Shown here: positions 31,601-59,652 of the stretch, piece by piece
Layout of the letters: the number at the start of each line of letters is the position of its first letter
Position numbering within the stretch: position 1 is the stretch's first letter
Origin: Cheilinus undulatus
Lineage: Eukaryota > Chordata > Actinopteri > Labriformes > Labridae
Direction of reading: 5' to 3'
Length of the DNA: 64,000 nt
Assembly: GCF_018320785.1 (NCBI RefSeq)
Contig: NC_054866.1
Location: 39,099,000 to 39,162,999 of the forward strand
The notes under the pieces: model-generated
The model's database searches: none
What the model saw: only the letters and a program-made list of their open reading frames with translations
Told to the model about the DNA's origin: nothing
Translations under genes and position numbers: made by a program

Positions 31601-32393
31601 ATGGTCCAACCATAAAAAGTAGCAGTCATTTCCACAGAGCAGCTGTTGAATCATGAGTGGGGAGAGGTGACCGAGAAGTCTCACTGCCAGACAATCATTC
31701 AGTTTCCAACATAAGGAAGACTTCTATATGAAAACCTACAAGTTATTTGCCTTGTATGATTCACTAATATGACTAATGGTGAGTGTTTAAAATACCTCTA
31801 CAGTGTGTCATTGCCAAAATTGTCATGTGTCATTGCCAAAATTGAAGTAAAATACTTGGAGCAAGGAAAAAGAGCACAGACTAACTCGTGGCTAATGTAA
31901 TTTTGCAGACTGACGTCAAAGTCGGTCGTTTTTTAGAGCTGTGGGTCTTAATGTGATTACACTTTGGTTTAAACCTCTACAAACTTTTTCCATGATTATT
32001 CACTCTGTGGAGGAGACTCAGGATTTGTCATCGGATGATATCATTGCTACAGAATTGCATCTCCTATTTAACTATAAAAAGGATTTGAAATTGTTGGACA
32101 CACAGTATTAATCAGGTTTTTGCAGCCTTAAACACCCAAAATTGTTAAAATTGAATGTTTCTTGTGGATAATGTCATGCATCTTCACTGTATCATCGTGC
32201 ATGTCACTCACCGCTTGACGTCCTCCAGTCTCTCCAACTCGTAGTCAATGTAAGTTTTCAAGTAATCGATAAGCTTCCGTTCAACGCTGATCGCCTGTTT
32301 GATGTTGAGCAGCGAGGTGTACATCTCACCTACAGACACATGAACCACAGACAGGACACAGCAACACAGGTAAACACGTGCAGTAGAAATCAT
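10619..32393 (-). CDS. p4ha3: Prolyl 4-hydroxylase subunit alpha-3 (collagen P4H), complete, 13 coding exons
   Basis: ER-lumen Fe(II)/2-oxoglutarate dioxygenase subunit that hydroxylates proline in collagen Xaa-Pro-Gly triplets, working in an alpha2beta2 tetramer with PDI (family knowledge). Exons in order: 32212-32393, 30269-30423, 29924-30147, 22097-22246, 21961-22012, 21659-21822, 17908-18084, 14733-14797, 14394-14553, 14213-14275, 11851-11919, 11181-11277, 10619-10689. All phases join to give 542 residues; human P4HA3 is 544. A signal peptide occupies about residues 1-22. The P4Ha N-terminal domain carries ANPLAAFTLIKRL and GAAKGLMRLQDVY. A TPR-like peptide-binding region follows (GDYYHSVQWLEESVRLF, LEDALDHLAF, about 188-255). 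The catalytic domain holds HYEPHFDHAT (iron ligands H438 and D440), H508 in DTLHAGCPVL and K518, the 2-oxoglutarate-binding lysine, in GDKWVANKWIHEYGQEF. All catalytic residues are intact. Exon 7 has a CAGCAG tandem acceptor, so a 543-residue form is possible. Intron 3 (7.7 kb) and introns 6, 7 and 10 are swollen by repeats. Confidence 0.97.
12359..13543 (+). mobile_element. Tc1/mariner-like transposon, internally deleted
   Basis: In p4ha3 intron 10. The ends are inverted repeats: GTTCCCCCCTCTGAAATAAT near 12361 against the reverse of the stretch ending GGGGGGAGTTGG near 13540. The similarity extends inward through a shared TGGGATGTTTACATTATTTT / TGGATGCTTACATTATTTT block, so the repeats are long (roughly 150 bases). 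The plus strand holds an N-terminal transposase piece (12755-13027, RNTIKKFNESH and GRGRKRKIS) and a C-terminal piece (about 13090-13310, QHDNNPKH, then SPDLNPTENLWGELN). The middle of the gene, including the first catalytic aspartate region, is missing at about 13020. Confidence 0.88.
16813..17260. repeat. Imperfect tandem duplication, unit about 215-235 bp
   Basis: In p4ha3 intron 7. Unit 1 (about 16813-17015) and unit 2 (about 17030-17255) share, in order: GGGGTTTAGCTG / GGGGTTTGCTGG; GCAGCAATTAGTTCGGATGT / GGCTATTAGCACGGATGT; a run on AGCAGAAGTTTTATCGAAACTGGAC / AGCAGTTTAATCAGAACTGGAC; CATTTCTTTAT; and a GCTTCAGCA / ACTTCAGCA segment. Neither copy has a convincing coding frame. It looks like a dispersed fish repeat duplicated in place. 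Confidence 0.7.
17257..17272 (+). repeat. Short telomere-like repeat (GGGTTA, about 2.5 units)
   Basis: The stretch reads TAGGGTTAGGGTTAGG, two and a half copies of the vertebrate telomere hexamer, at the right edge of the tandem duplication in p4ha3 intron 7. It is short enough to be chance or repair-derived. Confidence 0.6.
19230..20841 (-). mobile_element. Tc1/mariner-like TIR pair enclosing about 1.1 kb of unrelated DNA
   Basis: In p4ha3 intron 6. The left end CAGTGCCTTTAAAAAGTATT (19230) and the right end (reverse of a stretch ending TTTTTATAGGTATTG, about 20841) are inverted repeats. Both continue through TTTATAAAATCAA- and AATTTGGCTTT-type blocks and a GTCAAAGTGAAAACAGATTTC / GTCAAAGTAAAAACAGATTTC block. 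Only about 100 bases of the transposase 3' end remain on the left (about 19430-19527, minus strand). From about 19528 to 20645 the DNA is not Tc1-like. It contains GCTAACGTTAG-type motifs, a CCAAT-like and GGGCGTGGC box near 20600, and a small minus-strand frame (20351-20566). The cargo origin is unknown to me. Confidence 0.75.
21135..21504. mobile_element. Mariner-type MITE, about 370 bp
   Basis: In p4ha3 intron 6. It begins TACAGGTACATCTCAAAAAA at 21133 and ends TTTTTTGAGATGTACCTGTA at 21506, a near-perfect terminal inverted repeat bounded by TA. The interior also shows inverted symmetry (TATTCTAATTTTCTGAGACA against TGATAATCTAATTTTTTGAG) and has no coding capacity. It is a non-autonomous Tc1/mariner derivative. 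Confidence 0.9.
23215..26106 (-). mobile_element. Tc1/mariner-like transposon (outer), split by a second transposon, right end truncated
   Basis: In p4ha3 intron 3. The left terminal repeat starts TACAATGCATTCAGAAAGTA at 23213 and runs to about 23394. It resumes at 25001 with TGTATTCAGACCCTTTACTC after the inserted element. Minus-strand transposase pieces lie at 25019-25309 (LDLKPIQRLW, the second D/E block of the triad) and 25266-25484 (KHGGGSIMLWGYFPAAGTG), followed by the N-terminal part to about 25900. The right terminal repeat is recognisable to about 26106 but lacks its outer end. The transposase is broken. Confidence 0.85.
23397..24998 (-). mobile_element. Tc1/mariner-like transposon (inner), about 1.6 kb, both ends present
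   Basis: Inserted in the outer element at a duplicated TA (23395-23396 and 24999-25000). The ends are CAGTGCTTAACAAATTTATT and the reverse complement of AATTTGTTATAAGCACTG. Transposase on the minus strand: the helix-turn-helix part at 24357-24635 (MVKSGELTENE, DAGWSLRQIGKDIKCS, RGRGRKPKL), the middle at 23995-24273 (W-KVLWKDESKFELF, first catalytic D; VKHGGDSIMV) and the C-terminus at 23544-23792 (WPSQSPNLIPIEQIWDLVD, here N-L in place of the usual D-L, so the second catalytic D is altered). Frames shift between the pieces and the copy lacks a short coding block that the related MITEs keep, so it is inactive. Confidence 0.92.
28086..28628. mobile_element. MITE derived from the inner Tc1-like family, 543 bp
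   Basis: In p4ha3 intron 3. The ends CAGTGCTTAACAAATATATT and (reversed) CAGTGCTTAACAGATTTATT match the element at 23397-24998, again between TA dinucleotides (28084-28085, 28629-28630). The interior keeps only the transposase 5' end and the far flank; the left arm jumps from CTGTCAT straight to ATTTGTCTCAGAGACC at about 28118. No coding capacity remains. Confidence 0.92.
30722..30792. mobile_element. Solo Tc1-like terminal repeat remnant
   Basis: In p4ha3 intron 1. The stretch from AAAGGGTGAAACGTCCAAGG to TTTTTATAGGCACAGT closely resembles the right terminal repeats at about 10070-10120 and 20800-20841. No partner terminal repeat or transposase was found beside it. Confidence 0.65.
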
Positions 32394-32560
32394 CTTGTCT
32401 CTGTTAAAGCAGATGTAGAGGTTTCTCCCATCCGTGCGTCCTGAACTGAGTGAAGAGCTGCAGGGTTTGGAGACTCATCCCTCTTTAGCGGACGCGGGGA
32501 TCTCCCTCATCTGAGATCAGCTTTCACCTCCTGCCAGCTGCAGTCCGAAGCCATACAGGA
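32394..32560 (-). promoter_or_regulatory. p4ha3 5' UTR / proximal promoter region
   Basis: Directly upstream of the p4ha3 start codon. It is moderately GC-rich with a few CpGs (about 32440-32520) and no TATA box that I can see on the minus strand. The transcription start is not located; this is an inference from position. Confidence 0.35.
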
Positions 32561-36072: not shown

Positions 36073-37026
36073 CTAGTTATCCTGCAGCTTGCCTCTGATA
36101 CTGGGTTTGATTTTGTTTGAGCACAAGAAAAATGTTTTTCCGATGTAGCCTCTGAGACTCTGATCCCTGAAGCCGTAGATGAGTGGGCTGAGAAAGCGTG
36201 GAATCAGCATAAAACAGAAGTAATTAAAAAAGGAAACATCCTCTGGCAGCCAGTTAACATGCAGCACAATAAGAGTTTCAGTGATGGGGCTGGTGAAGGC
36301 CAACATGCACAGCAGCAGCTGAAAGCCGTGCAGCAGCACCGTGTGCATGGCTTTGCTCACAGACACTCTGTCTTGTCTTAGCTTCCTGGTTTCTAGAAGG
36401 ATTCTCACATAAGTAAAGAGGATAATAACTGCCACCACTGCAAAGAAGAGAACACTCACAGCAGCTCTGAACAATGACTGGATAGGAGATGAGTTGACAA
36501 TGGTAGCTTTGCAAATTACAGGGGTGGAGAAGACGTCTACAGCGGGATCCTGTTGCATGATAGCGTTTTCAATGAGAGGGGGGGTGCAGCTGATGAGCCA
36601 CAGAGCCAGAACAGTGATCCAGATTCGGTCTGAGCGCCAGGCTGCCGGGCGCTGCAGGGGGTAGATAATGGCAACATAACGCTCCAGTGACATGGTGGCC
36701 AGGATTAAAGGTGTGTTATGGAAAGTGGCAGTGGATAAAAACAGCAGAGGAACACAGCAGACAATAGCAAATTTCACCCGGCCCATGACAAAGAGGAAGA
36801 GCAGTACAGATGATAAGAGCTGCAGGGTGTCATTGATGAGCATATATGCAAACAGAATATAACGAGAGATGTCCAGGAACCGCCGGTGAGATGCAAAAAT
36901 ATGCAGCATGACACTGATGCAGCATAGGAAGACACAGAAGAAGGGGATAACCACACACACCTTGATAATCACGGACAGACTACTATAAGAAGATGAATTA
37001 CCTGGAAAATCTGTCAGATTCTGCAT
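36073..37026 (-). CDS. Odorant receptor, fish OR131-2-like, intronless, 317 aa
   Basis: Seven-transmembrane class A chemosensory GPCR, expected in olfactory neuron cilia and coupled to G-olf (family knowledge). The single exon is intact. Membrane spans by hydrophobicity are at about residues 23-47, 56-82, 88-118, 137-157, 190-214, 234-257 and 266-287. It has N-glycosylation sequons near the N-terminus (NLT at 3, NSS at 10). After TM3 it carries SLERYVAIIYPLQ, the family form of the DRY motif. TM6 begins TVLLHGFQLLLCM and TM7 ends RFLSPLIYGFRDQ, both typical of teleost OR131-2-type receptors. Paired cysteines start TM3 and sit in the second extracellular loop (VICKA). The ATG at 37024-37026 gives a normal length. 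The ligand is unknown. Its nearest relative in the window is the plus-strand receptor at 52381-53298, which is clearly divergent. Confidence 0.95.
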   Translation of the reverse strand: MQNLTDFPGNSSSYSSLSVIIKVCVVIPFFCVFLCCISVMLHIFASHRRFLDISRYILFAYMLINDTLQLLSSVLLFLFVMGRVKFAIVCCVPLLFLSTATFHNTPLILATMSLERYVAIIYPLQRPAAWRSDRIWITVLALWLISCTPPLIENAIMQQDPAVDVFSTPVICKATIVNSSPIQSLFRAAVSVLFFAVVAVIILFTYVRILLETRKLRQDRVSVSKAMHTVLLHGFQLLLCMLAFTSPITETLIVLHVNWLPEDVSFFNYFCFMLIPRFLSPLIYGFRDQSLRGYIGKTFFLCSNKIKPSIRGKLQDN

Positions 37027-39384
37027 TTTGCATGTGTGCTATCTGTTAAAGACACAGTGAATGAAACATGTTACAACATTTTGAGCAGAGATGCAGAGTG
37101 TAACTTACATTTTTTTCCCGGGAAAACAGAACAGCATATCAATAGAGGAACATTGTGAGAAAACCCCAAACTTTGCAAGACACTTTTTTCACAAATACTC
37201 ATCAAAGACAATATGCACGTTAAATGTACCCTCATGGTAACATTATATTATAAAGGACACCTCTCTCACCTAAGAAAGTCTCCATCAGTCAGAGGAGTAG
37301 GCCAAACTTTATACTTCTGTTTCTCTCATGACAAACACTCTCAGGGATGTTCTGCCCTCATCCTAGGGGTTTGGCCAAACTCAGATGTTGTGACTCAGGT
37401 CTTGATTTCTCCAGACAGATGTTATTTTCACGCTATCCTCATCAAGCAGTAAGTTTGACAAACATCAGATTTCAGTGGGGACAGCTGACACTATGAAATC
37501 TAATTGAAGTTCAACTTTAGTGTGCTGGATAGCTGTTGTTTCACAATGTATGCAATATGCACAACCTGTTTTGATCAACATAGCTGCTACAGAAAGAGGC
37601 CAAATCAACAATGTAGAGCATCTAAGAGTAAAACAATGAACCTGGAAAACTATTACCTGAACCCAAACCTAATCCTTTTTCTTTTAACAACAAAAACCTT
37701 CTTCCACAGCTCTTTTTCTCTTTCTCCGGGAATGCATGATATTATTGGTATGATATCAGCAGACATGAAAATTTCTGCTGACATTTACATCAGATGTTTT
37801 GGATATAAAAAAATGCCTACATCAGCTGTTAGTATTTGTTGAACAAACAAATGGCTGAAGTCTTTTTCTTTAGTCACTATTGCTCCCTACACTTTGAGAA
37901 ACCCAGGTTTTAGTTCTGAACAACATTTGTCTATTTGTATTGGCTAAAAATAATTTGTAAATATCAGCATATCTTATATAAAAAATCCAATATTATGAAT
38001 CCCTTCTTTTCTCCAAATAATGTCCATGATTGTTGCAGCTGAAACAACTCAAAATGCATCTGTTATACATCTTAGCCTTGAGGATGACATATGATTGAGT
38101 ATTACCAAATTATTTATATGACTATTTCAGCTGTCTGTATCTTCTACTGGACTTATGAAAATATTATGAACTACATTTTTCATTACTTTCATGTGAAACC
38201 GTTTTTAAAAGTTCTATATAAAGTTTATTTACACTGACAATCAGGTTTACCATTAAAGAACTGCTAAGTTACTAAATAGGCCTACTAGCTATTAACTTTA
38301 ATTTAAAACGTTTAGACTCACTAAATAAAAATGAACAAATAACTTTGGTATCTAATCAGCAGTAATGATATAATTTTCCATTAAGATACAATATGTAAAG
38401 TACAATTTTAAAAGCAGGCACTATATATATATTTTTTATCATTCAGCATATCCACTTCAATTAGTGATTAATACAGTTAGCCATTCAAGACTGCAAGCCA
38501 GCATAATCCTGACATTCAGGAAAAGAGTAATTTTTTTAACAAAAACTTTTGATTAATTTGTGGTAGCCTTTTAGATAAAACTAAAAATTACGATAATATG
38601 AATCACACTGGGGCATTAGGAAACAAGTTACCTAAACAGCTCATTAAGTAGTGTTAGCAGTTAGCTTGCTAGCGAATAAAGTTATGCTAACCTGAGGGTG
38701 ACCGTTAATATGTTTGTTGTCAGTTACTTAAACTTTCTGTCGACGTGAAGAAAAGTTATCGTCTCTCTGAAGTTACGTTTCTGTCCTACTGACTAAGGTA
38801 AGCTCAGTGATCACTGTTGTTGGGTGTGCTTATTAAAATAAGATTAATCTATCCACTCGCTAGCTTAGGTGGGTTTCTGTCCGATAGCTGGTGTTTGGTG
38901 CTAATAGGGCAATGCTATCACAAGAGGGCTTGCTGATGTTGGACATTTAGGGGACAAACTTTGCAGCAGTGACACTTGATGGTGAAATGCTTTTAAACAG
39001 CAGAAATAGTTGGAAACAAACATTTTAGATGTGCATTTTCAATTTAACTGAATTTTTGGGATGTCAGTAAACCCTTTTGAAACGATTTAAGGGTGTTATG
39101 TATAGATCATAGTTTTAGTCTGCTGACTTAATCTATGATCTTAAAGTTTCTAACAGCATACATAAATTTTGTTTTAAAAAATCTTGATGAGATTAGAAAT
39201 ATCTTTTACAAGAGTGTCCTAGTCGAGACAAAGACTCTCGATAAATGGGTGTTAGAATGAAAAGTACAAACTACTCCACCATATTCAACACACCTGATGC
39301 AACATGAGTTTAAAAAAGGCTGTAACTTAATAATCCCCTCATAGAAATGGTGGTTGGGTTTTTTTTTTCCTGTCACACCTTGCA
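37027..39384. other. Intergenic DNA, no gene recognised
   Basis: Upstream side of the minus-strand odorant receptor gene, which includes its promoter. Only short, homology-free open frames are present (for example 37213-37452 and 37504-37842, plus). No clear repeat family was recognised. Confidence 0.5.
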
Positions 39385-39905: not shown

Positions 39906-41454
39906 TGTAAGTTGTTAGTACATGTATCACAGGAATTCAAAGATATGCATGAAAAATACCCTTCAATTAATAGCATATGGATGCTTACAACTTTTGGGCA
40001 TTAAGCCTACTAATTGTTGCCAGTAATAAAATTTTAACTTAAACATAACACAGTTCTCCTAATGTTGATGGAAAATGTTTTAAACATTTTAAATATTTAT
40101 TAAAAATATATGTATATATACTATAGACTATGAGTTCATGTGAAAAAGTGCAGCAGATGCTGGGCTGAACATTCATAAAAACTCTGAACTGGTTATGGTT
40201 TTGGAAACACGATACGGCTGAGGCACAGATGAGGCAACCTCACTGGTGGCTGCAAAATGTCCCCTAATAGCTTTCCCATTTTTGCTGATGCACACCAGTT
40301 TCCAAGTCACTTAACTGAACTATTTTCCAGCTGGATTGGGAGCCCTCATATTGATTTTTGGCCCTGCATTAATCCTGCTGAGTGGGCATTTTAAAGTCAC
40401 CTGCGTTAGATATTCCAGCTTTGTCTTGTACTGTGCAGTTTGGGAACAGTTGTGCAAAGTGTTTTGGCAGTGTCCCCAAATGCTTGTAACTTTGGTACGA
40501 CTGTGGTTGACTGAGTTTTTAAAGTGCAGGTGTTGAGTCCTTCACTGCAGGAGTAACAAGAGAGATTTGAATCACAGGAAAAGGCATTCAAAAAAAGATA
40601 TCCCACTTTACATTGGGGAGAGTTTGTCTGTCAAGAGCAAAATCAGTGAGCAGTTTGCAATGAGAGGCCACAGTCTCTGATCTCTGCTTTATGTCTTCTC
40701 TGCCTTCAGCTTTTTATATGTGCTGAGTGCTAAGCTCTTTATTGCCTTATCTTTGTTGATTGTAAAGGTTAATGCATTGTTCAGCCTTGAGCTGAATTTT
40801 TAGTCACAATTTATAATCATGAAAGTTATGCAAGTAGTAAAGGAGAGTTTATTTCAGCCTTTTCAAAGCTTCAGTACACCATGGCCCAATATGATAGCTG
40901 AAAATTTTAAGTGGGCCTGCAAAAACCCGCATACAACCACAACATGACACTTTAAGTGTGCAATTACAAAGTGCAGTTAATTAGCAGGTACCATTTATAT
41001 TGTTTTGATCTGGCATCTGCAAACTTCCAAGTTTTCTTTTCTTATATTGATCTCTTTAAACATACTTTTTGATTCTGCAAACTCTGTTCTAGTAATGATT
41101 AGGCTTTCAGCAGTTATTTCAACATGAATTCGCTGACACCAGTTCTGTAAATCAGACAAGTGATAGAAAGGTATCATGTCAGTTCAAATGTTTGGCTGTT
41201 TTTTCAGTTCTGGGACTAATTTTGCCTAAAAGTATTAACCTATGATCAGGTATCTTATGATCATTTAAAACATACTTGTTATTTTGAAAATTATATTGTA
41301 GGTTGTATGTAGTGTAAAAGACTTCTACAGTCCACTTGCAGTACCTCTAAGGCCCTCTAAGGAGCTTTGGCCCACACTTTGGGAAGCATTGATCTAAAGT
41401 TTGATAAATAAAGGAAACCCGTTTCATTCACATTCTTGATGCATTGGATTCTTC

Positions 41455-42180
41455 CCAACAGGAAGTCCATCTCAATTTCAAAATGAGGCATTTTGATGGT
41501 GCCAAATGACTTTAACCTCTTATAACTTCTGTATACAGTATTCTGTGATCTTCTACTCTTTCTGGCAAGACAACAATATCACACTGCACACGACCACATG
41601 CAAACATCCCATCATAGCACCCTCTACTCCCGACAGGAAGTGACAAAAATGGTTAATTTCTTTATTCCTCTTACTGTGCTGAACCTATCAAGCTCAGATT
41701 TTTCAACGGAAGTCCTCAATAATTGTCCACAACACTAACATGTTTCATCAATGTATGATCAAGGTCTGCCCCTCTAAACATTCAAAGGATTATTTTATCA
41801 TTTTTGCTGTAGCACTCCCTACTGGCAACAGGAAGTGACACAGTTGGGACAGTTCTTTGTTTCTGCTATTACTGAGTTGAACCTAGCAAGCTCAGATTTT
41901 ATAATAATAATAATAATAATAATATCTTGAATTTATATAGCGCCTTTCAAGAAACCCAAGGACGCTTTACAGGAAAAAGGAAGGCCTCAATATTTGTCCA
42001 CAACACTGACATGTCTTATTAAAGGATGCCTTACTGCCAATGGTTGTTAATTTCACAGGAAGTTGGCCTAAATCTGATCTGAAACATTTGATTTGCATCA
42101 AATTTCACATGTGCTATCAAGGTCTGCCCCTTTATACATTTAATTTCATGGTTTTGCAGCAGCGGCATCTACTGTAAGAT
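41455..42180. repeat. Degenerate tandem repeat (unit about 190-300 bp) with a small insertion
   Basis: Shared segments in order are: GCACCCTCTACTCCCGACAG (41618) / GCACTCCCTACTGGCAACAG (41813), GGAAGTGACA (41635 / 41829), GAACCTATCAAGCTCAGATT / GAACCTAGCAAGCTCAGATT, GTCCTCAATAATTGTCCACA / GGCCTCAATATTTGTCCACA, and ATCAAGGTCTGCCCCT (41757 / 42117). Unit 2 carries an extra AAT microsatellite plus a TTTATATAGCGCCTTTCAAG block (about 41900-41975) that is absent from unit 1. Confidence 0.7.
41900..41976. repeat. AAT microsatellite with a short SINE/LINE-like tail inserted in the tandem repeat
   Basis: About eight AAT units (41901-41925) are followed by ATCTTGAATTTATATAGCGC and CTTTCAAGAAACCCAAGGAC, a sequence type frequent at the 3' ends of fish retroposons (tail on the left, so the insertion is on the minus strand). 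A related TTTATTTATATAGCAGTTTT block occurs at about 54467. Confidence 0.5.
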
Positions 42181-43940
42181 ACCAATAGCAACTCTTGCAT
42201 AGTGTGTCCCATCGTCTTTGTATTTTTCACAGTAAATATTATTATTATTTGTTATTATTACAGTCTAGACCTGCCCTCTTTGTAAAGTGTCTTGAGGTAA
42301 CTTTGGTTGTGAATTGGTGCTATACAAACAAAGACTGATTGATAGAGTTACACCATGTTGAGGATTGTTTAAAAACTTGCCACCCAATGGCCACACTTGG
42401 TTTAATTGGTGTCAGTGTTTGGTTTTCTGTCATGATGGTTATGGCAGATAGATACGTGTTGAAAATTAAGTTGTCCAGCACATTAAGCAGGACAAATGCT
42501 TCATTTTGAAATAACTTGAGACAGCATGCTACAAGCACAGGAGTAGGGAACATGCTGAACAATAAATGTGCTGCCTGAAATCTAAAAATGTGGGTGATAA
42601 TCATACCCAATGAATATGTATTAGTGCTCATTTCATGTTTTTTTCAAAACCAAGAAGGCCTGCTTCACATGCATAAACATCGTTGGTTGTTGTCAGACTC
42701 ATGACAGGTTCATGTTTGAGTCTGGGTTAAGGACACTGCATTTGGTCATGGACATATTTCATGGATTCAGAGGGAGGGGGAATGTTGACAGTCAATGCAA
42801 AGATCAGTGTTGTTCATTTGGGGCTGTTTGAACTCATGTTGCATTTTTTGTACTGGAATTGTTCCTGTTCTACTTTTCCAGTTTGGACTAGATTATACAA
42901 CAATCAAGCACTTAATCATGTTCCTTTATCTCAGGCCAAATCACAAAAACTGATCTCATACTGGGCCTGAATCATAGTTATACAGTTTTATATCTTAGAG
43001 TTTGAACACAGCATGCATTTCCATTAATTCTTTACGAGTGTAATATGTGGTAAGATTGTTTCATTTGTTGTCAGCCAAAAAGGATTTATTAGAAACATAT
43101 CTTGACTGTTTAGATAGTGTTACAGTGTTAAACCTTTTCACTCATACTACTGAAATCTGCAACTAAACTTTGCGTCAGCATTGTTTTGCAGACTATGATG
43201 AAACCAACAGGGTTATTTCTGTAGTTGAAATGACTTGCATGTCAAGCAGTACACTGAGGTACTGTTTAAAATCTCCAGAGCTCACGTCTCATATCCCCTG
43301 CTTGGTCATTAACAAGCTGATGCTGGCTGATCATTAACATGAAGCTCCAGAGTCCTGAAAGTTTCATGTGTTTGGCAAGCAAGTTGACTCTGCTGAGAGC
43401 AGCTACGGAGGGGCTCGCCTCCCCTTTACGTAACTTCTACGTCAGTAATCAGGACTGTGGTGGATCAGAACAAACACAGTGGCTAGAACAAACTTTCTGT
43501 GACTTAACCTACCAAATGTCACCTTAGCAAACTAGTTTTATAGAGGCTATAAAGCTGAATGAATGCCATTGCAAAACACTTTTTAGCGGCTGTAATAGAG
43601 AACTAATAATAGGAAAAAGATTGACTAAAAGAGAAAAGATGTTTGAAGTTAAACAATGAAAAAAGGTCAGACGAATATGTTTTGAAGAGGACACATATTT
43701 AATACCAAGAAATGTGGCAGTGCCATGTTTGTATAATACCATTCTTTAAAAAGGTCATACCTGTGTACCATTCAGGATCATGATATGATATAGAGTATTA
43801 TTGTTCTATGTCTTGCACAGGTTGGCAAATAGACAAATGCCTAGAAAACTTTCTAGTATGATGTTTGACAGTCAGTTAGTGCCTGATAGATGTTGATATA
43901 TCAGGGAAAATGCTTTATTCAGTTTTTATTTATTTATGTA

Positions 43941-44114
43941 TTTTTTTAAGATTTATTTTTGGGTCTTTTTGTGCCTTTAGTAGCTAGAGGAGGATAGTGG
44001 ATAGACTTGGAAACAGGGAGAGACATGCAGCAAAGGGCCACAGGCCTGATCCAAACCCGGGCCGCCAGCGTACATGGGTAGAATCCCAAACCACTGGGCC
44101 ATCTGCGTGCCCCC
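43941..44114 (-). mobile_element. SINE-like repeat, copy 1 (minus orientation)
   Basis: Runs from TTTTTTTAAGATTTATTTTT to CTGGGCCATCTGCGTGCCCC. The pattern (T-rich tail, TGCCTTTA, GACAGTGG-type block, ATGCAGCAAAGGGCCACAGG, GAnCCnAACCCGGGCCG, final CCACTGGGCCAT) is a widespread fish repeat. The right end, read on the minus strand, resembles a tRNA-derived promoter head. Confidence 0.65.
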
Positions 44115-44572
44115 TTTCAGTTTTTTTTTTTTATACATTTTTAAATTGGAAGCTCTGAAAGGAGGTTATCATTCTGGAAAACTGAGTTCTTATTTAAAAC
44201 ATGGAGCATGTTGAACAGTGGAAGATCCCTTACACTAGGTTTGTTCCTATCAACTAGTTTCACTGCTGATTAAAAGCAAATTTAAATCCAGACTAGCCAA
44301 CTGCTCTTAGGTTAAGAAAACACTCAAAAAATTTCATATCAAGCACAGTTTATTTCACATTGTTAAATGCAAGGTTGCAGTCTCTGCTGGTAAAAAATGT
44401 CAAATTGGTTTGCTAAGTGTGAAAAGTGCTATAACCAACAGCCTTCGGTTCTCCTTGGAGGTAAACGTCCACATATGCTTCTTAAATACTGCTCTGGTTT
44501 TATTAGAGCCAGTTTAATCTGAAACAGCCCATATACAACTTCTCCATATTTCTAGATCAAAATACTGCCAAA

Positions 44573-44776
44573 GGGGTGCCAATGGCCGAGCACTTAGGGG
44601 ACACACCCTGTATTATTGAGGCAACAGTCCACCAAGCAGGCAGCCAGGGTTTTTGTCCAACCTATGGCTCCTTTCCCATGTCATTCCCCACTTTCTCATC
44701 TATGTTTCTGACTTTATCCACTGCTGTCCTCTATAATAAAGGCATAGAAATCCCAATAATAAAACGATTTAAAAAG
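44573..44776 (+). mobile_element. SINE-like repeat, copy 2 (plus orientation)
   Basis: Starts GGGGTGCCAATGGCCGAGCA, where TGGCCGAGCACTTAGG resembles an RNA polymerase III A box. It continues through CCCATGTCATTCCCCACTTT and ends ATAATAAAGGCATAGAAATC then an A-rich tail. It is the reverse complement family of copy 1 at 43941-44114. Confidence 0.65.
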
Positions 44777-44944
44777 TAGTATCAAGGCATGGCTCTGCTA
44801 ATTCTTAAAAAAAGCCAAACCCCTTCATGCAATGTGATGCTATTCATCCTCATAGCTGGCATACTCGCAGTAAAGGATTATTTCAGTGTGGAAGTAGCTA
44901 GCCATTGGCAGGAGGTACAGCAGTGGCCAGCTGCTTATACACAA

Positions 44945-45110
44945 TAATGGCAGGGTTGCACAGTATTGGATTTTTGACGATATCTGATATGCCAATCAGG
45001 AGTGAGCTGATCCTGATCGCGTGTATTGAGGCTGAAATTAACATTTTTTATTTGATTGGCGATTGGCAGGTTGATCAGATCAGCCTAGCCGATCTCAGCC
45101 ATCGTACATG
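44945..45110. repeat. Degenerate dispersed repeat with GAT-rich palindromic blocks
   Basis: Contains ATTTTTGACGATATCTGATA, CAGGAGTGAGCTGATCCTGA and GATTGGCGATTGGCAGGTTG followed by GATCAGATCAGC. It resembles fish repeats built on GATATCGG-type blocks. No ends or coding frame were identified. Confidence 0.3.
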
Positions 45111-45790
45111 GAGTACATATCTCATGGTACATCCATAATGCCAATATTTCCAGAAAAAACAAGTGAAGTGGAAAGAAAAAAATAATAAATTGATAAGTGC
45201 ATAGAATGGTTCATTACTGTCTAAGATGTAACTTAATGCTGTGTTGGAGGCTTTCATGATGCTGGTCATTATTGTAAGGATTTATAGAGGAAATATTGAT
45301 TATGTGTGCTCACTCTGTTAGTGTTAAGGATTTTGTCTATAATTTCTGGCTGATCTTCATCTTTTAGAACATGTGGTTTGTATCTCATCTAATGTTAACT
45401 TGTATGTTAACAGTATGCAGTATGCAGCTGTTTTGCTTTTCGTGTTGATGAAAATATTCCTACAGCCAGTTTTGTGCTATATAAAAAAAGCAAAAGATAA
45501 CTTCAAGATAACTTTTTGGGGATTAATTTTAGATGTTTCTAACATTTTTTAAAATCTAAATAGTTAATTTTTATAGTGATATGTAAAGGAAATTTCAAAT
45601 TTTTCTTAAAGATCTATAACGTCCTTAACTAATACTAACCCCGTTTTCCATGCAAATACACTCACATACGCACATACCCATCTGAGCAAGCGAGGGAGAG
45701 AGGGATCTAGACGTAAGGTCTGTCCTTCTGGCCTCTCTCTGATAAAGCCAAATACGCACATTTGCAGGCCGAGTCAACAGATCAATGCCT

Positions 45791-45825
45791 TTACGTAATG
45801 ACACGGTTTCTGGGCCTTATAAATA
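45791..45825 (+). promoter_or_regulatory. Core promoter of the first DIABLO paralogue: TTACGTAA site plus TATA box
   Basis: TTACGTAA at 45791-45798 is a perfect palindromic bZIP site (PAR-bZIP/NFIL3/C/EBP-ATF type). TATAAATA at 45818-45825 follows 19 bases later. The likely transcription start is about 45848-45855, giving a 5' UTR of about 175 bases to the ATG at 46028. The second paralogue has neither element. Confidence 0.6.
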
Positions 45826-46027
45826 CCAACAGGGATTTCAGTTGACCATCATTGAGCAGACCGCAAGATCACAAGCAGCAAAAACAGTATTCTGCTACTT
45901 TTACAAAGGCTGTTAAACTGTGAAAGGACCTGATTGTAGTTCAAACTGCAAAAAGAAGAAAACGACTGTCAGCAACTTTTTCTCACATAGCGCATAGACT
46001 CAGTCTGAGTGCAGCAAAATCTGCAAA

Positions 46028-47492
46028 ATGCAAGCCATTCGACAATGTTCAATGTGTGCCAGCAGCGCTGCTGGAGGACTTCTGAGAAACCAGGCAGACT
46101 TTTCATTTCTGCGGACAAACAAGAGCATGCTCAGGAGGGGAGCCACCTGTGTCCGCTTCATAAGGTAGGTTATTCTTCTAAAAATGTTCTTAATTTTTTA
46201 GGATGTTTGGTAACTTCAAATCCTAGGCTTTAACTTTAAGAGAGCTGTTATTGAGCTGACAGACTAATCCATTTCCTGCATCTTATTTTCTGCAGCATTT
46301 CTGAGAGTGGACAATTCAGCAGCACAACACCTGAAGTGCAAAAGATGGGCGAACAGACAAATACTGCAACCAAGGGCTATACATCTTCAAGCGTTGCCAG
46401 TGGGCTCAACTCTCTCCCCTTCTCACAGGTTGGTCATATTCCTACAGCTATATCTACAAAAAGAACAACTCTTTTAGTTTTTCAAATAAAGATGTTAAAT
46501 TGTTGAATTTCTCCCCTTGTATGCAGCATGTGGAGAACCTCTCTCACGACTCCCTGATCAGAAGAGCGGCCTCAGTGGCAACAGATGGTTCAAATACTTT
46601 CCTCTCACAGTCCTCCTTGGCTCTCATCGATGCCCTCACTGCCTATTCAAAGGTAGGCTGGATGTTATGTTATGGGCATTGAGTCTGCTGAATTAAAGCT
46701 TCTGTGAGTTTATTTTTTCAGAAATAACTGGCACTGTCCCTGACTGTCTGCCCTGTCTTTGTTTGCAGGCTGTACTCACTCGCATTGCTTTCCAAAGACG
46801 CTACTTGGCCACGCTGGGAAAACTGACCCCAGCAGAGGAGGATTCACTCCTGGAGGTGATCAATGTCCAGCGTGCAGAGGTATGTTATTGCTGTCGGTTA
46901 AAGACAAAAAAAGTACAATAGCACTGTGTTGATTTATGCTTTTTTTTTTAATCTGAAAAGAAGTTGTTTATATGAGACTGATCCATGTTTTGTTTTGACA
47001 GGCTAGTGACAGGCTGGAGGACTGCAAACGCCTTGAGTCAACCTGGATCAATGCTGTCAACTTGTGCAAAATGGCAGCTGAGGCAGCACACAATTCAGGT
47101 GAGTAATGCCTCTCGTAATAATAATGTGCTCACAGAGAGATTAAAGTTGTATTATCTGCTAGAAGGTGATCAGATCATATTTTATCCTGTTACTTAAAAG
47201 AAAACTGATTCAGTGGACTGAGCTCTTGATAGTTTTTCAGCTTTATCAGCGGTTTGAACAAAATGTATGTTTCCATATGTTTCCAGGAGCTGAACACGCA
47301 TCTATGACAGTGAGGACAAACATTCAGGTGGCCCAGTCGCAGGTGGAGGAGGCTCGTAAACTGTCTGTTGATGCTGACAAGAAGCTGGCTGAGACAAAGG
47401 TCGAGGAGATCCAGAGGATGGCAGAATACGCAGCTTTTAGATGGGATAATGAAGAGCACGAGGTGCATGAGGCCTATCTGAGAGAGGACTGA
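46028..47492 (+). CDS. diablo: DIABLO/Smac paralogue with altered IAP-binding motif, 6 exons, 269 aa
   Basis: DIABLO/Smac is a mitochondrial intermembrane-space protein that, once released, binds IAP proteins through a processed N-terminal AVPI-type tetrapeptide and so promotes caspase activity (family knowledge). Exons: 46028-46164, 46296-46428, 46527-46652, 46769-46879, 47002-47098, 47287-47492; all are GT-AG and in phase. The N-terminus (MQAIRQCSMCASSAAGGLLR) is basic and acid-poor, like a mitochondrial presequence. The helical core is well conserved: [87 protein letters not shown], ending EAYLRED. At the position of the paralogue's CAIPFKQ this protein has NSLPFSQ, so the exposed alanine needed for BIR binding is missing, and the hydrophobic stretch before it is replaced by a polar one. 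Exons 1 and 2 are therefore unlike the second copy. Paralogue letter (a or b) not assigned. Confidence 0.94.
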
Positions 47493-47798
47493 GATAGACG
47501 GAGTAACCAGGAAATCATGCAAACACGAGCGCATGTTTCAACTTTGAAAGCTGTGACCTGTCAACCATTTATTTAACTTTTTGTTCTCATTTCTTTTTGA
47601 GCCCTTAAGTTGTGTTTGTAGCAACAGTATTTTAAAAAAGAGATATTATAATTATGAAAAAAGCCTAATTTATTATTTAAGACTATTTATTTTAAAAGTA
47701 AATGACAGCTGCTTTCTGAGCTTCTGAATAAATGATTATGGGCTGTGGGCTTATCCAACATTGTATCACAGTGTTCTTTATTGTATGGATTTTTGTTG

Positions 47799-47859: not shown

Positions 47860-48425
47860 AGAGAGGTGTTTCTAAACCTTGACTGGAGTCACCTGTGGTA
47901 AATTAAATTGATTGGACATGATTTGGAAAGGCCCACATCTCTATAGAAGGCCTCACAGCTGACAATGAATATCAGAACAAAAACCAAGCCATGAGGTCTA
48001 AGGAACTGCTCAGAGATAGGATTTTTGCATGGCACAGATCTACTACAAAAAAAATCAGTTGCTCTGAAAGTTCCCAAGAGCACAGTGGCCTCCATAATTC
48101 TGAACTGGAAGAAGTTTGGCACAAACAGGACTCTTCCAAGAGCCCAGCTAAACTGAGCAATCGGGGGTGAGGGGCTTTTTATTAAGAGAGCTGACCAGGA
48201 ACCTGACAGTGGAGATGGGACAAAGTTCCAGAATGACAGCCATCACCGCAGCCCTCCACGTATCTGGGCTGTATGGGGGATCGGCCTGATGGAAGCCCCT
48301 CCTCAGTGCAAAACACAACAAAGCCTGCTTGGCTTTAACATGATTTTTTAAAATCTGATTTAAAGTGTTTGCAAAATACAAATTCAGAGATTGTGAGGGT
48401 GAATGATGAAACTTTTTAGTGTGCT
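47860..48425 (+). mobile_element. Tc1/mariner-like fragment, same family as the outer element at 23215
   Basis: The stretch GACTGGAGTCACCTGTGGTA, AATTGATTGGACATGATTTG and ATCTCTATAGAAGGCCTCAC is the near reverse complement of about 25795-25875 in the outer element. The HTH-region remnant runs to about 48250, then it passes to about 48420 with a deleted middle. It starts about 55 bases beyond the poly(A) signal of the first DIABLO gene. No intact terminal repeats or reading frame. Confidence 0.75.
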
Positions 48426-51590: not shown

Positions 51591-52380
51591 AAGGAAATTC
51601 TAGCAAGATAATAAAGATATATCAGATAATCCAGCCTTTGCTGACTTTAGTCAGAAGGGGGGTATCGGCCTAAAATCATCCTCTTCATCTTGTAGTTTGT
51701 GCCTCACCTTTATCAGATGTAGTGATATGTCAAATTATGACAATTTGTGGGATTGTTTGTACTACAAATACAAAGAAAAAATAACTTTTGACTCATCAAG
51801 GACTGACCTCCACAAAAAGTGGAAAGTGGAGGAAAAGATTCAGCCGCTCAATAATAATGCAATCACATTCAGACACCAATAGATTCTTTGGAGGGTTGTA
51901 GTCTGGGGGCGTCATTTACTTAATTTACTGCAGCCTTGCCTTTACATTTAGAGTGTACTTATGTTTGTTTTTCTTTGAGAAACTCATTTGCATTATGAAC
52001 AGGACCTAATTTGTGGTTGTTAGTGCAGCCTAGTGTGCTAGCAGTTACTGTCGATGACGACTTCCATGTGCTATTCCCCTGGAGCTGAGGCTGTGTCTTA
52101 TTAAGTCTTCATACACACTCCTTACTTTCATTCATCTTTGAATCACAGAGGCAGTATGTCATGTTCCTGCAGCGTTGGTTTGTAACATGAGAATCTAATG
52201 CCATTTAACTTGTTCATGTACTGTATATGTCTGGTGTGAATGCTGGGGGCTGTTTTAATGTAGGTAAATGCAAATTGTCCAATTTGCATTGGTGATTTTC
52301 TTGAATTTGAACCTCTTTGACCTTATTGTTTTTGAAAAGTGGGTAAAAATTATCAACAATATTTTAAACCTGAACTGAAC

Positions 52381-53298
52381 ATGGCTTACAATAATTCTCA
52401 TGTTGGTAGCGTATCCCTCATGGAAGGGCTTAGTTTCAAAATTATTTTAGTTCAGGTTTTGGTGATAGTTTTCCTTGGCATCAACTTTATGCTGCTCTCA
52501 ACCTTTTTTATGAAGGAGGTCTTCTACACATCTTTGCGCTACATCTTATTTGCTGTTACATTGCTGTCTGATTGTGCAGTTTTGCTTCTGACGGGTATAC
52601 TTGCCATCTGGACCAGATTTCATTTCACCGTGCCTGTATGGCTGTGTCTTATCATATTTATTTTGGCCACTGTATACACTTTAATCACGCCGTTTACGCT
52701 GACAGCAATGACCATAGAGCGTTATGTAGCCATCTGCATGCCCCTGCGTCATGGAGAGCTGTGCTCCACACGCTGCTCACTGCACTGCATCCTCATCATT
52801 CACGGCCTCAGCTCTATTCCCGTTATTGTTGATCTCGCCATCTTCTGTTTATCAGTGCCTCTCAGCTTTTATAAAAAAGCAGTGGACTGCAGGGCAAGGG
52901 TTTTTATTTTGTACAAATGGCAGGAGTATATTCGATCTGCTATAAAGCAGTTCTATTTTTTGCTTATGTGCATTGTCATTGTATTCACTTATGCTAAAAT
53001 CATGAAAGCAGCCAAAGCTGCATCAGGAGAGAATAAAAAGTCAACATGGAAAGGATTAAAAACTGTAGTCCTTCATGCTTTCCAGCTGCTGCTCTGTCTC
53101 ATCCAGCTGTGGTGTCCATTCATAGAGGCTGCTGTCCTTCAGATTGATTTCATGTTGTTCATTCATCTTAGGTTTTCTAACTACATTCTTTTCTATCTTG
53201 CTTCAAGATGCCTGAGCCCTCTTATTTATGGTCTCAGGGATGAGTTGTTTTTCAGTGCATTGAAATACCAGCTCTGTGGCTTGCACAACACTAGTTAA
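52381..53298 (+). CDS. Odorant receptor, fish OR131-2-like, intronless, 305 aa
   Basis: Seven-transmembrane chemosensory GPCR in one uninterrupted exon. The ATG at 52381 gives MAYNNSHVGSV with an N-glycosylation sequon (NNS) before TM1; the frame is open further upstream but has no other ATG. Membrane spans lie at about residues 19-42, 49-72, 80-111, 130-152, 185-208, 227-250 and 257-279. Family motifs are TIERYVAICMPLRHGELC after TM3, TVVLHAFQLLLCLI opening TM6 and ASRCLSPLIYGLRDE at the end of TM7. The receptor at 36073-37026 shares these motifs but little else, so the pair are old paralogues on opposite strands rather than a recent duplication. It lies between the two DIABLO genes. Ligand unknown. 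Confidence 0.95.
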   Translation: MAYNNSHVGSVSLMEGLSFKIILVQVLVIVFLGINFMLLSTFFMKEVFYTSLRYILFAVTLLSDCAVLLLTGILAIWTRFHFTVPVWLCLIIFILATVYTLITPFTLTAMTIERYVAICMPLRHGELCSTRCSLHCILIIHGLSSIPVIVDLAIFCLSVPLSFYKKAVDCRARVFILYKWQEYIRSAIKQFYFLLMCIVIVFTYAKIMKAAKAASGENKKSTWKGLKTVVLHAFQLLLCLIQLWCPFIEAAVLQIDFMLFIHLRFSNYILFYLASRCLSPLIYGLRDELFFSALKYQLCGLHNTS

Positions 53299-54965: not shown

Positions 54966-55072
54966 AAAAAGACAAAATTCTCATACTTTTTTAACTTTCT
55001 CATATGAATCTTCTTACATTAAGTGATTCCTGTTTGCTGTTTTCTTTTTTAAACATTTACTTTTTTTTATTA

Positions 55073-55248
55073 TTATAAAAATATCACTATATTACTGTCA
55101 CTTTCGGTTACAACCGAGGCAGCTGCTCTCTTCTTTTTCTGGTACCCCATACCACCACTTGCTCTTTGAGTGGCACTCAGTATCAGACTGTACCAGCTTC
55201 CTTTTACTTCTAAACCACACCCAGTTACTGTACAGTCAGACAACCTGA
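55073..55248 (-). CDS. Candidate terminal coding exon, unidentified
   Basis: Minus-strand frame with coding-like composition: LSDCTVTGCGLEVKGSWYSL then ILSATQRASGGMGYQKKKRA and a stop. A good splice acceptor (TTATGTTCTCAG) would open it at 55248, and AATAAA on the minus strand (55066-55071) follows right after the stop. I do not recognise the protein and no upstream exon was found between here and the second DIABLO promoter, so this may be chance or a pseudo-exon. Confidence 0.2.
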
Positions 55249-55539
55249 GAACATAATAGTGAGAATCACAAGAAAATGTTGTCAATGTTTGCACAGTGCT
55301 CACAGGCAGCATCATTGAGCAGAGCTTTAATATTTACTATGCATGGATACAGTCAAATAACTTCAGAAATGAAGACATATTTTGTTTTTATTAAAAAATA
55401 AAACAGTAAGTAAAAACGAAATTAAAATAAAAGTAAAAAAAATTCCCAAACTATAACAACCATGGCTACAAAAAAAAAAAAAAAATGTTTTGGGGGTCAA
55501 TTGGTTGGTTCGCATTATACCGAAATTTAGATACTATTT

Positions 55540-55645
55540 TTCCCGCCAGATGGCGACAGCGTTTAGTCCATGAAATCTCTGTGGTGGAACCTTTGGTCAT
55601 TGACGACGAACGCTTTATGGTGGCGGACCAAGATGGCCGCGCTAC
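55540..55645 (+). promoter_or_regulatory. TATA-less promoter / 5' UTR of the second DIABLO gene with YY1-like sites
   Basis: GC-rich and CpG-containing with no TATA box. CCAGATGGCGACAG (about 55547) and ACCAAGATGGCCGCG (about 55628) resemble YY1 sites (AAGATGGCGGC); the second overlaps the start codon. An upstream ATG at 55617 lies in another frame with a weaker context. This layout is typical of constitutively expressed mitochondrial genes. Confidence 0.5.
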
Positions 55646-58600
55646 GGACGGTAACAAGCTACCTCCGTCTCCTCAGGTAGGAAATTTCATACAGAAAAAA
55701 TATCTTAAAGAATATGTTGATCATTCAACATACAATCGTTGTGCGGAATTGTCAGTCACCAAAAATAATATATAGCTTTTGGCTTATTTGTGGTCAATTA
55801 AGAGTGATTTCTTTTGTCATAATACTGCGTTCAACGACAACTGGAAGCTGTCAGTGCTTATGTTAAACTTGTTTTTCACACTCTAGCAGAAACATTCTGA
55901 CTACAGTTTAACATCATGAAACAGTTAACGTCTGCATTCTTATTTACGTTTCTGGGGTTAATAGTAAGTAGACACTTAATGAGAGTTGGGTATCGAAAAT
56001 ATAAGTAACCCTTGCTGTTACTCACGGTGCCTGACAACTTAATGCACACTTCCTGTATTTAACAGGATAGTATTAGCTCATCTCGAGTTTAAACTACTGC
56101 TCTCTTTCTCCCAGGAGTTCTGCTCGTTTCCTGGTCAATAACAACAGAAAACCGGGGAAATGGACAAATATTCTTTACAGCAGTATAGCGTCTTTGACCG
56201 TAGGCGGTGGTCTATGTGCCATACCTTTCAAACAGGTAAGTCACCAAAGCTAAATTATAGCATGTGCAGTGTCACAGTATATAGTTCACATGTTATATTT
56301 ACCTGAAATAGTTCTTCTGTGTCTCTCATGCAGGTTGACAATCTCTCTCATGATTCTCTGGTCAAACGAGCAGCATCGCTGGTTACAGACAGCTCAAGCA
56401 CTTTTCTCTCTCAGGCCACTCTGGCTCTTATAGATACCTTCACAGAATACTCAAAAGTAAGTGGAAGTAACGTTGTTCACATATCTAGCTGTTCAGACTT
56501 AATACTATGCTAATAACAACAATTTTAATTATGCACCCTTCATATATGAAGTTGGAAGGTTCATCACAAGCAGACATTAAAATACAAATGGTTGAAACAA
56601 ACCAGCCCCATCAAGATAGTTGCAGTAAGGTTTATAAATAAATCAGGAAGCATACCAGTCATGAAAAAGGTTATATATCAAAAGATCAACTCTAGATATT
56701 ATGATTCATGAGTCTTTTATGCTAATAAGATACTCTTTCAACTCTGCTTTTGCAATATTAATCATTTGCTGTTCATCAGGCCATTCACTACACCCTGACA
56801 CAGGTTGTAAGGAATTCAAGGGGGGAAAAAATCATAGTTATGATTATTTGATTGATATTGAGTTAAAGATTGTTAAACAACATTATGTATTGATTTTACA
56901 GCATCAGTATGACAGGCATTTTCTAGTTCAACTTTAGATTGACTTTCTGAATATTTTAAAAAGTAACAATTAATGACAATAAGAGAAAGATCTATAAATA
57001 TTTATTAAAATGTGTAACAACAATAATAATAACTATGAAGGATAAATGAAAATAAATCAGCAATGTTTTAGAGGTAGCGGTGATTATCCTTTTGACTCAA
57101 ATACAACAACAAATGCTGAAACATTTATCACACATAACATAGCCTACAGCTAAATGAGAGCAACAGAGTGTGTGGTGCATTTAATCTTTGTGATCTTCTT
57201 TTCAGGATCCTGAAAGACAATTTAAATCAAAAGTCAATTAATAGCTCAGCACAACAGCATATACACAAAAAATTTACAATAGAGCAGCAGTTCCCAAACT
57301 TCAGTATGCTGTGGTCCAAGACCTGAAAATCCTCTAGGACCCAATTAAACCCTTGTGCAATCATAAAATGAGACCAAAATATTTGTCTTTTATTTATCAT
57401 ATTTTTATTTCATAAATTGAGAATTTCAATATGATCCAATGAAATGTATTTTGTTTGTTTTTATCAGGTATCTGCAAAGTCACTTAAAATTTATTTTATA
57501 ATATTCATCTCTGTAAATTTACTTTGAGGCCCATCAGACTCCTCCGATGTATCATTTATGTCTCCAAAGGCACTAATGAATTCTTTAAATTGGCAAGCAA
57601 GCAGCATAGTAAAATGTTAAACAGAATGTCACCAGTTATTCCAACATCAGTTAAACTGTGACACAGATGGAACACATCAGACAACATAAATAATAAAAGT
57701 GGCATGATTTAAAACTTCTGTCGGTTTTACTTCTTAGACTCCAATGATTTGTAATCAAGTATTTAATGACTTAAAAAAATATATTATTCCTTATTAGCTA
57801 TTGCGAATGACCTCATGTGGCTCACTTATTGCATGCTTAGAATGTAAACCTAGTTAATATAGTTATCTTATTTTTCACAATAAAAGCCATTGTATTTTGT
57901 CTGCATCGCCTTTTGTAACTATAATGTGAAAAATAAGGACACAATAAATTTCAGCAAATATCTTCTACTGTGCTGCCAGGACAGGGTACAACATTTTGGG
58001 TGTACGAGTTCTTTGTTCCCATGTCATGAAATTCAAAATAGAATAAGAAGAAATGTTCAAATAAAAAAACTTGCAAATTCTACTATAGTGTGGGCAATAA
58101 TTCTGTAAGTACTCCACACATTCTGCTGAAGTTCACACATATTAATGCAATGTGAAGATTTAGCTATACCATGCGGAAATAATGGAAAATGTAAGGAATG
58201 TTAAGCTATGTATAATATGAATCTAATGTTTAATGACTAGCACTTATAACTGCAAAGTTAGTTGAGGTAATGCAGAGGTAAATTAACTAGTGTTTTTTTC
58301 CTTAAGAGGGACAAAGAAATTAAAAATAAAGAGCTTGGATAAAAGAAGTTTGGGTTAGTAAGACAAAACAAGACAATGACAAGTTTCCTTTTAGCTTTGT
58401 CTAAACTCTGCAGTATTGTATAGTTTTTGTTTGATCTTGAGTACACCTTCAGCTGTAACTCCAGTATAAGGTAAAAGATATTAAAGCATTAAATCTTAAA
58501 TCTTATTAAACATTAAATCTTAAGTATCAATTATTAATTTGTCTCAAGAACCAGGCCTCTGGCTTAGATATGAAATATTCTACAGACCTACTTCTGTCTG

Positions 58601-59652
58601 AAACTTTCATCCAATACAGTAAAAAGTCTTGAAAATCATCTTCTGTGTTGCTTTGCAGCCACAGTTGATGTTTGATTTCAAAATGCAAATTATGTATGTT
58701 CACTGTGTTTGCTGACAGGCTGTGCACACACTCATAGCTCTTCAAAGGCGGTATTTGGACTCTTTAGGGAAACTGACACCTGCAGAGGAGGACACAATCT
58801 GGCAGGTGATCATTGGCCAGCGTGCACAGGTACGTTTTTCATGCCCTTCCTTGAAAAACTCCCTAATAACAAAGCTGAACAAAGTATTCAGGTTTCTTTT
58901 TATTCATTGCAGCAACATAAATATGACAGCAGGCCCAACGTAATAAAGGTGTAAGCCTCACTGGGTCTTACTAGAGTTTATATCTCTCTCTTCCTGACAG
59001 ATTAGTGAAAGACAAGATGAATGCAAGCGTTTCGAGTTAACCTGGATCACAGCAGTCAGGCTGTGTGAAACTGCAGCGGAGGCGGCGTACACCTCAGGTG
59101 TGTGGAAGTGTCACTGCTGTGTGATTAAACAGTCAGGATGTGGGGTTTCTTACAGATCATGTCTTGAAAAATACAAATTTTTGCTTTGAATCATCCTCTC
59201 AAAGCTTTGTGTGTTGCCGTTTATGCTGGTTCCTATTCAGCTGCTGTCAGTGTAAACCTTAAGATGGTGTGGGGATCATTTGGTATCACTCAGCATTGCT
59301 TTGTGTAAAACAAAATGGAGATGATGGACAGGAGGGCCTTCTTAATGACCATGCCTAATGTCTGATCTCGAGGTGGTATATTATGTCAACCTTTGAACTT
59401 CTCTCAGCAATTGGACTGTCTGTGTTTACATGTGTGTCTGCAGGAGCCGAGCACGCATCCATCACTATGAGGACTAACATTCAGGTGGCTGAGACGCAGG
59501 TGGAAGAGGCTCGTAAACTGTCAGCAGATGCAGATAAGAAGCTGGCTGAGACTAAAGTAATGGAGGTTGAAAGGATGGCACAGTACGCTGCATCCTTAGA
59601 GAATACCAACGAAGAGGAAGAGATACCTGAGGCTTATCTGAGGGAAGACTGA
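55633..59652 (+). CDS. diablo: DIABLO/Smac homologue, mitochondrial, canonical, 6 exons, 234 aa
   Basis: Pro-apoptotic IAP antagonist stored in the mitochondrial intermembrane space (family knowledge). Exons: 55633-55676, 56115-56235, 56334-56456, 58719-58829, 59001-59097, 59444-59652, all GT-AG and in phase; human DIABLO is 239 residues. The presequence is basic ([20 protein letters not shown]). A hydrophobic stretch ([13 protein letters not shown], about 38-50) follows, then AIPF at residues 51-54, a standard IAP-binding motif released when the presequence is cut after the cysteine. The helical core reads [78 protein letters not shown] and [20 protein letters not shown], ending EAYLRED. The start has a good Kozak context (AAGATGG). 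Intron 3 is long (2.26 kb). This copy is much closer to mammalian DIABLO than the paralogue at 46028-47492. Confidence 0.96.
57286..57545. repeat. Possible hAT-like remnant in intron 3 of the second DIABLO gene
   Basis: Starts AGCAGCAGTTCCCAAACTTC with CAGTATGCTGTGGTCCAAGA, resembling hAT ends (CAG-GGTTCCCAAACTTT type). No right end was identified. Weak. Confidence 0.3.

Follow-up and report, generated by a model that had tools for sequence, protein, structure and literature searches.

A tandem DIABLO duplicate in Cheilinus undulatus that may encode a permanently IBM-less Smac with a replaced N-terminal maturation module

When a DIABLO (Smac) gene reads SLPF where the IAP-binding motif (IBM) is expected, is it the serine that sets its product apart, and could that product still act as an IAP antagonist? 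The question is raised by copy 1 of two DIABLO genes that lie about 8 kb apart on the + strand of the window, the whole 64,000-nucleotide stretch of Cheilinus undulatus DNA analyzed here. Our best explanation, drawn from the sequence of one genome and given a probability of about 0.5, is that copy 1 is an old tandem DIABLO duplicate that would encode a permanently IBM-less Smac, its N-terminal maturation module having been replaced. The coding exons and associated features are as follows.

45818..45824, + strand: putative TATA box (TATAAAT) of copy 1, from a motif search, 210 bases before the ATG
46028..46164, + strand: copy 1 exon 1 (45 complete codons), a basic and amphipathic sequence resembling a matrix presequence
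46296..46428, + strand: copy 1 exon 2, with a polar stretch in the stop-transfer position followed by SLPFSQ (AIPFKQ in copy 2)
46411..46422, + strand: SLPF at the IAP-binding motif place of copy 1, positioned relative to the exon end (46428)
46527..46652, + strand: copy 1 exon 3, where the helical body begins, dimer residue F kept (human F88/F33)
46769..46879, + strand: copy 1 exon 4
47002..47098, + strand: copy 1 exon 5, dimer residue L kept (human L163)
47287..47492, + strand: copy 1 exon 6 with stop, ending EAYLRED; AATAAA at 47727 and 47799
55633..55676, + strand: copy 2 exon 1 (presequence)
56115..56235, + strand: copy 2 exon 2, carrying the hydrophobic segment and the AIPF motif
56334..56456, + strand: copy 2 exon 3
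58719..58829, + strand: copy 2 exon 4
59001..59097, + strand: copy 2 exon 5
59444..59652, + strand: copy 2 exon 6 with stop

Copy 1 (46028-47492) and copy 2 (55633-59652) each comprise six coding exons, specifying 269 and 234 amino acids, respectively; all 10 introns (five per gene) are GT...AG, their phases match between the copies, and both proteins end in EAYLRED. An in-frame ATG at 55570, 63 bases before the assumed copy 2 start, may add 21 N-terminal residues to that copy. Both products matched the Pfam family Smac_DIABLO (PF09057; cutoff, 25 bits), copy 1 with 235.9 bits and copy 2 with 309.4 bits, copy 1 residues 68-269 matching profile positions 28-237 of 237, and the solved Smac structure 1few_A was found to be a relative of copy 1 (139 bits, E 2.1e-39). 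Over a core of 151 residues, the copies are identical at 107/151 positions, whereas copy 1 and copy 2 share 71/151 and 82/151 with human Smac, respectively. A PF09057 profile search of the whole genome (1.17 Gb, 46 contigs) yielded, from 9 scored candidates, 7 exon matches, all within this window, in a procedure that takes exons singly and that very diverged copies could escape; one match extends beyond copy 1 exon 5 into the intron and hence shows a stop. Since the only matches are these two genes, copy 2 is the sole canonical Smac found in the genome by this exon-wise search.

Copy 1 is flanked by two single-frame seven-transmembrane receptor ORFs (36073-37038, - strand, and 52336-53298, + strand; Pfam 7tm_1, 52.3 and 46.5 bits), odorant-receptor-like by eye, the latter lying between the DIABLO genes. 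The - strand carries a C2CD3 N-terminal C2 domain (PF25339) at 4945-5256 and a prolyl 4-hydroxylase TPR domain (PF23558) at 21875-22267, and the ORFs 14385-14675 and 32208-32474 (-), which have no Pfam family match, look by eye like the same prolyl hydroxylase. Tc1/mariner-like transposon remnants occupy 23544-24659 (-), 9186-10041 (+) and 47880-48250; the DDE_3 match in 23544-23939 is subthreshold (22.7 bits; cutoff, 28.6), and the other two were recognized by eye. Because human C2CD3 and P4HA3, neighbors on 11q13, are not near human DIABLO on 12q24, the DIABLO pair may have moved to its present site.

The original prediction placed NSLPFSQ|HVEN across an exon boundary of copy 1 and the motif of the second copy at the same place and boundary, and both points were borne out by the matching intron phases and by the exon ends. 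Exon 2 of copy 1 (46296-46428) ends in ...SSVASGLNSLPFSQ and exon 3 begins at 46527 with HVENLSHDSL; in copy 2, exon 2 ends in AIPFKQ and exon 3 begins at 56334 with VDNLSHDSL, the start of exon 3 having one additional residue (H) in copy 1. Aligned without gaps, the 29 C-terminal residues encoded by exon 2 are identical at 11/29 positions, a score equaled by 0 of 10,000 shuffles, and by 1 of 10,000 when the last 6 residues were removed. The best tblastn match of the copy 2 presequence in the window outside copy 2 itself was 46339-46431 (E 0.012), and the next, 48213-48076 on the opposite strand (E 0.054), contains a stop. Alignment of the two exon 2s as DNA was not significant (equaled by 17/500 shuffles). 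A 4-residue deletion in the membrane segment of copy 1 was considered and dropped, as the ungapped alignment fits. The protein comparison indicated that the homology of the two exon 2 ends is above chance. The pattern A-x-P-[FIYWVL] is absent throughout copy 1 and occurs once in copy 2; as read from the exon alignment, there is no canonical A-x-P-x at the motif place in copy 1, and the canonical exposed motif has quite likely been lost from this copy.

Another upstream exon restoring A-x-P-x had been named as the finding that would overturn this reading, and the search for it gave nothing credible in the window upstream of copy 1. A scan of the + strand for phase 0 exons carrying A-x-P-x, with any x, returned 4 candidates in 40001-46526 and 9 in 1-40000, an earlier scan with the second residue restricted having returned 3 in 40001-46526. 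The donors of the four candidates lie at 40306, 43441, 44120 and 46433, and the mean hydropathies of the preceding 15 residues are 0.63, 0.66, -1.49 and -0.57, respectively. For the candidate at 40306, the open frame contains no AG acceptor at a sufficient distance upstream, and that at 46433 is copy 1 exon 2 read in another frame. No upstream exon restoring A-x-P-x had a hydropathy of at least 0.9 over a full 15 residues in 1-46526 (+ strand, phase 0); the true copy 2 exon, as a control, was recovered at 1.25. Skipping of exon 2 would break the copy 1 frame, because exon 1 supplies 137 coding bases (44 in copy 2).

The segment before the motif is hydrophobic in copy 2, as a stop-transfer signal should be, and polar, with a lysine included, in copy 1 (TATKGYTSSSVASGLN), the mean Kyte-Doolittle values of the 15 residues before the motif being 1.25 and -0.17, respectively. 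The resulting difference of -1.42 compares with a lowest value of -0.49 among 161 windows of the body, and the same 15 residues share 4 identities (4/15), against a body minimum of 6, hydropathy serving here as a proxy for sorting. According to the passages cited, a stop-transfer segment retains such proteins in the intermembrane space and is where PARL cleaves a Smac intermediate (PMC8061763), Smac residues 1-57 have been used to direct a reporter into the intermembrane space, and a weakly hydrophobic segment of PINK1 was modeled as passing into the matrix (PMC13324151). The cited part of a study of PARL specificity (PMC7966987) gives no answer on whether Asn before the cut is accepted. From the comparison of the two copies, the serine is the smaller change and the loss of the hydrophobic stop-transfer/cleavage segment the larger one. 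Since that segment is gone and exon 1 differs, SLPF is probably never made into an N-terminus; we know of no way to turn it into one without the membrane segment. Capture of copy 1 exon 1 from another gene or repeat was considered and found unsupported: the 90-residue presequence of copy 1 matched nothing in the genome beyond its own two exons, and the DNA of 45750-46300 matched only itself in a genome search that skips simple repeats and very common words.

The two genes also differ upstream. Besides the putative TATA box listed above, a TATA-like site lies upstream of copy 1 at 45478, and the same search of 55000-55640 found one site only, at 55074, 559 bases before the copy 2 ATG. With transcription assumed to start near 45848 for copy 1 and at 55590 for copy 2, no ATG occurs between 45848 and the copy 1 start, and an in-frame TAG stands 30 bases upstream of the copy 1 ATG. 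The CpG ratio around the assumed starts was 0.97 for copy 2 and 0.57 for copy 1 (0.27 for the window). With the TATA box in copy 1 and the higher CpG ratio in copy 2, the promoter types seem to differ, which suggests regulated expression of copy 1 versus housekeeping expression of copy 2.

Over 175 aligned body codons, the dN/dS between the copies was 0.144 (NG86; bootstrap range, 0.070-0.230, with 298 of 300 resamples giving a value), 0.183 (LWL85) and 0.232 (YN00). As dS ranged from 0.82 to 1.21, the duplication is old by this measure and the ratios are rough. Were dS divided equally between the two branches, neutral evolution along that of copy 1 would alone be expected to yield a dN of 0.41-0.61, more than twice the 0.17-0.19 seen; thus, these estimates indicated that copy 1 was constrained during much of its history, with purifying selection on the body. 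The 29 codons of the exon 2 end gave an NG86 dN of 0.574 and dS of 1.514. With human Smac as the outgroup, the 151 core sites include 17 with a change confined to copy 1, 6 with a change confined to copy 2 and 21 at which all three proteins differ (P = 0.035), indicating, as a single test of modest strength, that the copy 1 body has changed more than that of copy 2.

How much a serine tip would cost can be gauged from published peptides on XIAP BIR2 and BIR3, among which, in the part of PMC3760131 cited here, SVPI, SMPI and SMRV are shown and SLPF is not. The Ki values (micromolar by the text, although the table prints M) were 12.02 and 4.62 for SVPI and 5.24 and 0.71 for AVPI on BIR2 and BIR3, respectively, so that SVPI is about 2-fold weaker on BIR2 and 6.5-fold weaker on BIR3; the other pairs were 3.11 and 0.08 for AIPI, 33.97 and 12.54 for SMPI and 12.25 and >47 for SMRV (PMC3760131). 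The same source records a natural P1 Ser in XIAP BIR2-caspase-3 and terms P1 Ala essentially unalterable in peptide libraries. The original prediction was that serine weakens or abolishes IAP binding: weakening agrees with the SVPI values, abolition does not fit them or the natural P1 Ser, and the claim presumes an N-terminal SLPF, which our analysis speaks against. The serine argument was thus wrong in emphasis, because the segment exposing SLPF was lost too, and the suggestion that copy 1 lost the antagonist role or changed its partner is plausible, with the whole maturation module rather than one serine as the cause.

Residues named at the Smac interface are V78, V81, F88 and L163 (PMC2948501); the F88 and L163 equivalents are kept in both copies, V78 is replaced by A in both and V81 by A only in copy 1. 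In the passages cited from that paper, an N-terminal extension leaves dimerization possible, and IBM-less human Smac forms bind XIAP, potentiate caspases and can promote apoptosis, so a Smac that loses the tip does not thereby lose every interaction with IAPs. Smac60, an IBM-less form, binds XIAP, forms pairs with Smac56 where both are in the cytosol and, under proteasome blockade, raised caspase-3-like activity 7.3-fold; killing by etoposide was not potentiated, and the AQKS sequence with which Smac60 starts was suggested as a secondary IBM (PMC2948501). Copy 1 lacks AQKS and has SQHV at that place. Human Smac76-239, without the start of the mature protein, formed no complex with IAPs (PMC2948501), and the stretch missing from it is kept in copy 1. 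The Smac precursor is bound by BIRC6 independently of the IBM and its degradation is promoted, and neither HtrA2 nor active caspase 9 was displaced from BIRC6 by Smac with AAAI for AVPI (cited part of PMC10827748), which speaks against antagonism of BIRC6 by a Smac without the IBM. BIR proteins are kept in the genome (11 matches spread over five contigs; 8 matches have no internal stop). A role of copy 1 in binding through its body, proposed by analogy with these forms, is somewhat doubtful; failure of the IBM-mutant Smac on BIRC6 counts against both that role and the overall explanation.

As an IBM-less Smac with a replaced maturation module, copy 1 would offer no membrane segment for the inner-membrane protease (PARL or IMP) to cut, SLPF would stay unexposed, and the product would not be a canonical intermembrane-space IAP antagonist. 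Its dimer, if cytosolic, would meet XIAP, cIAPs or BIRC6 only via the body; if the exon 1 presequence works, copy 1 would enter the matrix and would need a new role. Of the mechanisms considered, IBM-less body action is the best supported and matrix import its main rival; the compartment occupied is the deciding question. That exon 1 is a true presequence and the Smac-fold dimer is a fully imported matrix protein with a new, nonapoptotic function is rather unlikely, even with 7 basic residues and 1 acidic residue among the first 45, a best 18-residue hydrophobic moment of 0.63 at residue 26 with a net charge of +5, and the consistent stop-transfer logic (PMC8061763) and PINK1 segment model (PMC13324151). 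The exon 1 composition is joined by RFISISESGQ at residues 43-52, which fits the MPP plus octapeptide-peptidase pattern, a motif whose shortness weighs against the reading, and we know of no matrix Smac for comparison.

It is distinctly unlikely that copy 1 retains IAP antagonism through a protease that exposes SLPF, with weaker binding to BIR domains and an altered balance between BIR2 and BIR3. The SVPI values, the natural P1 Ser and the register of P-F and the exon end with copy 2 are consistent with this, but intramembrane cleavage would need the membrane segment that copy 1 has lost, the 4 pre-motif identities fall below all 161 body windows, and the library result on P1 Ala (PMC3760131) argues otherwise. 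Copy 1 could instead be a damper that pairs with copy 2 into one-tipped dimers of weaker XIAP binding, as the kept F88 and L163 equivalents and the pairing of Smac56 with Smac60 would allow. This is improbable, given that V81 is A in copy 1 and that, in the cited passages, pairing of mitochondrial with cytosolic Smac was not seen and an extremely stable dimer is described (PMC2948501), so copies 1 and 2 would have to share a compartment during folding. The greater number of derived sites in copy 1 than in copy 2 would suit a dying duplicate or a wrong gene model, but this reading is highly improbable beside the open 269-codon frame, five GT-AG introns phased as in copy 2, the poly(A) signals, the EAYLRED end and a low dN/dS at high dS, in keeping with the earlier judgment that the gene is not simply decaying.

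Compared with canonical Smac/DIABLO (human, and copy 2), copy 1 shares the Pfam family and, with copy 2, the intron phases, but it lacks the hydrophobic sorting segment and the A-x-P-x tip and has another exon 1 and a TATA promoter. In humans, the splice isoform Smac-beta (Smac-S) lacks the IBM and remains in the cytosol (cited part of PMC2948501); like copy 1, it is a Smac body without an exposed IBM. It complexes with XIAP, cIAP1 and cIAP2, and the feature by which copy 1 is likened to it is the missing motif; Smac-beta is a splice form of one gene that skips an exon, whereas copy 1 has a gene to itself, with the exon retained in altered form and a possible presequence. The BIRC6-bound Smac precursor (cited part of PMC10827748) resembles copy 1 in having the motif unexposed and the body available, but it is a passing state of normal Smac. 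The literature matches listed, mostly nonsubscription, included no paper on an IBM-less fish DIABLO paralogue, which is weak evidence of novelty, and included fish papers naming diabloa 1-4 times. In the virus and prokaryote contig collections, there were 28 and 38 matches to the pattern, and tblastn found no relative, with no bearing on fish.

In the papers cited here, the value of a tipless Smac body has so far been argued from splice isoforms and engineered constructs, and a separate gene without tip or sorting segment, yet maintained by purifying selection, would supply evidence from nature that the body is of use by itself. Tentatively, at less than even odds, a vertebrate lineage may have split Smac into a canonical IAP antagonist and a long-kept Smac-fold dimer that has neither sorting segment nor tip and acts in another compartment or with another partner, which, if true, would be a genuine job change for a core apoptosis protein.
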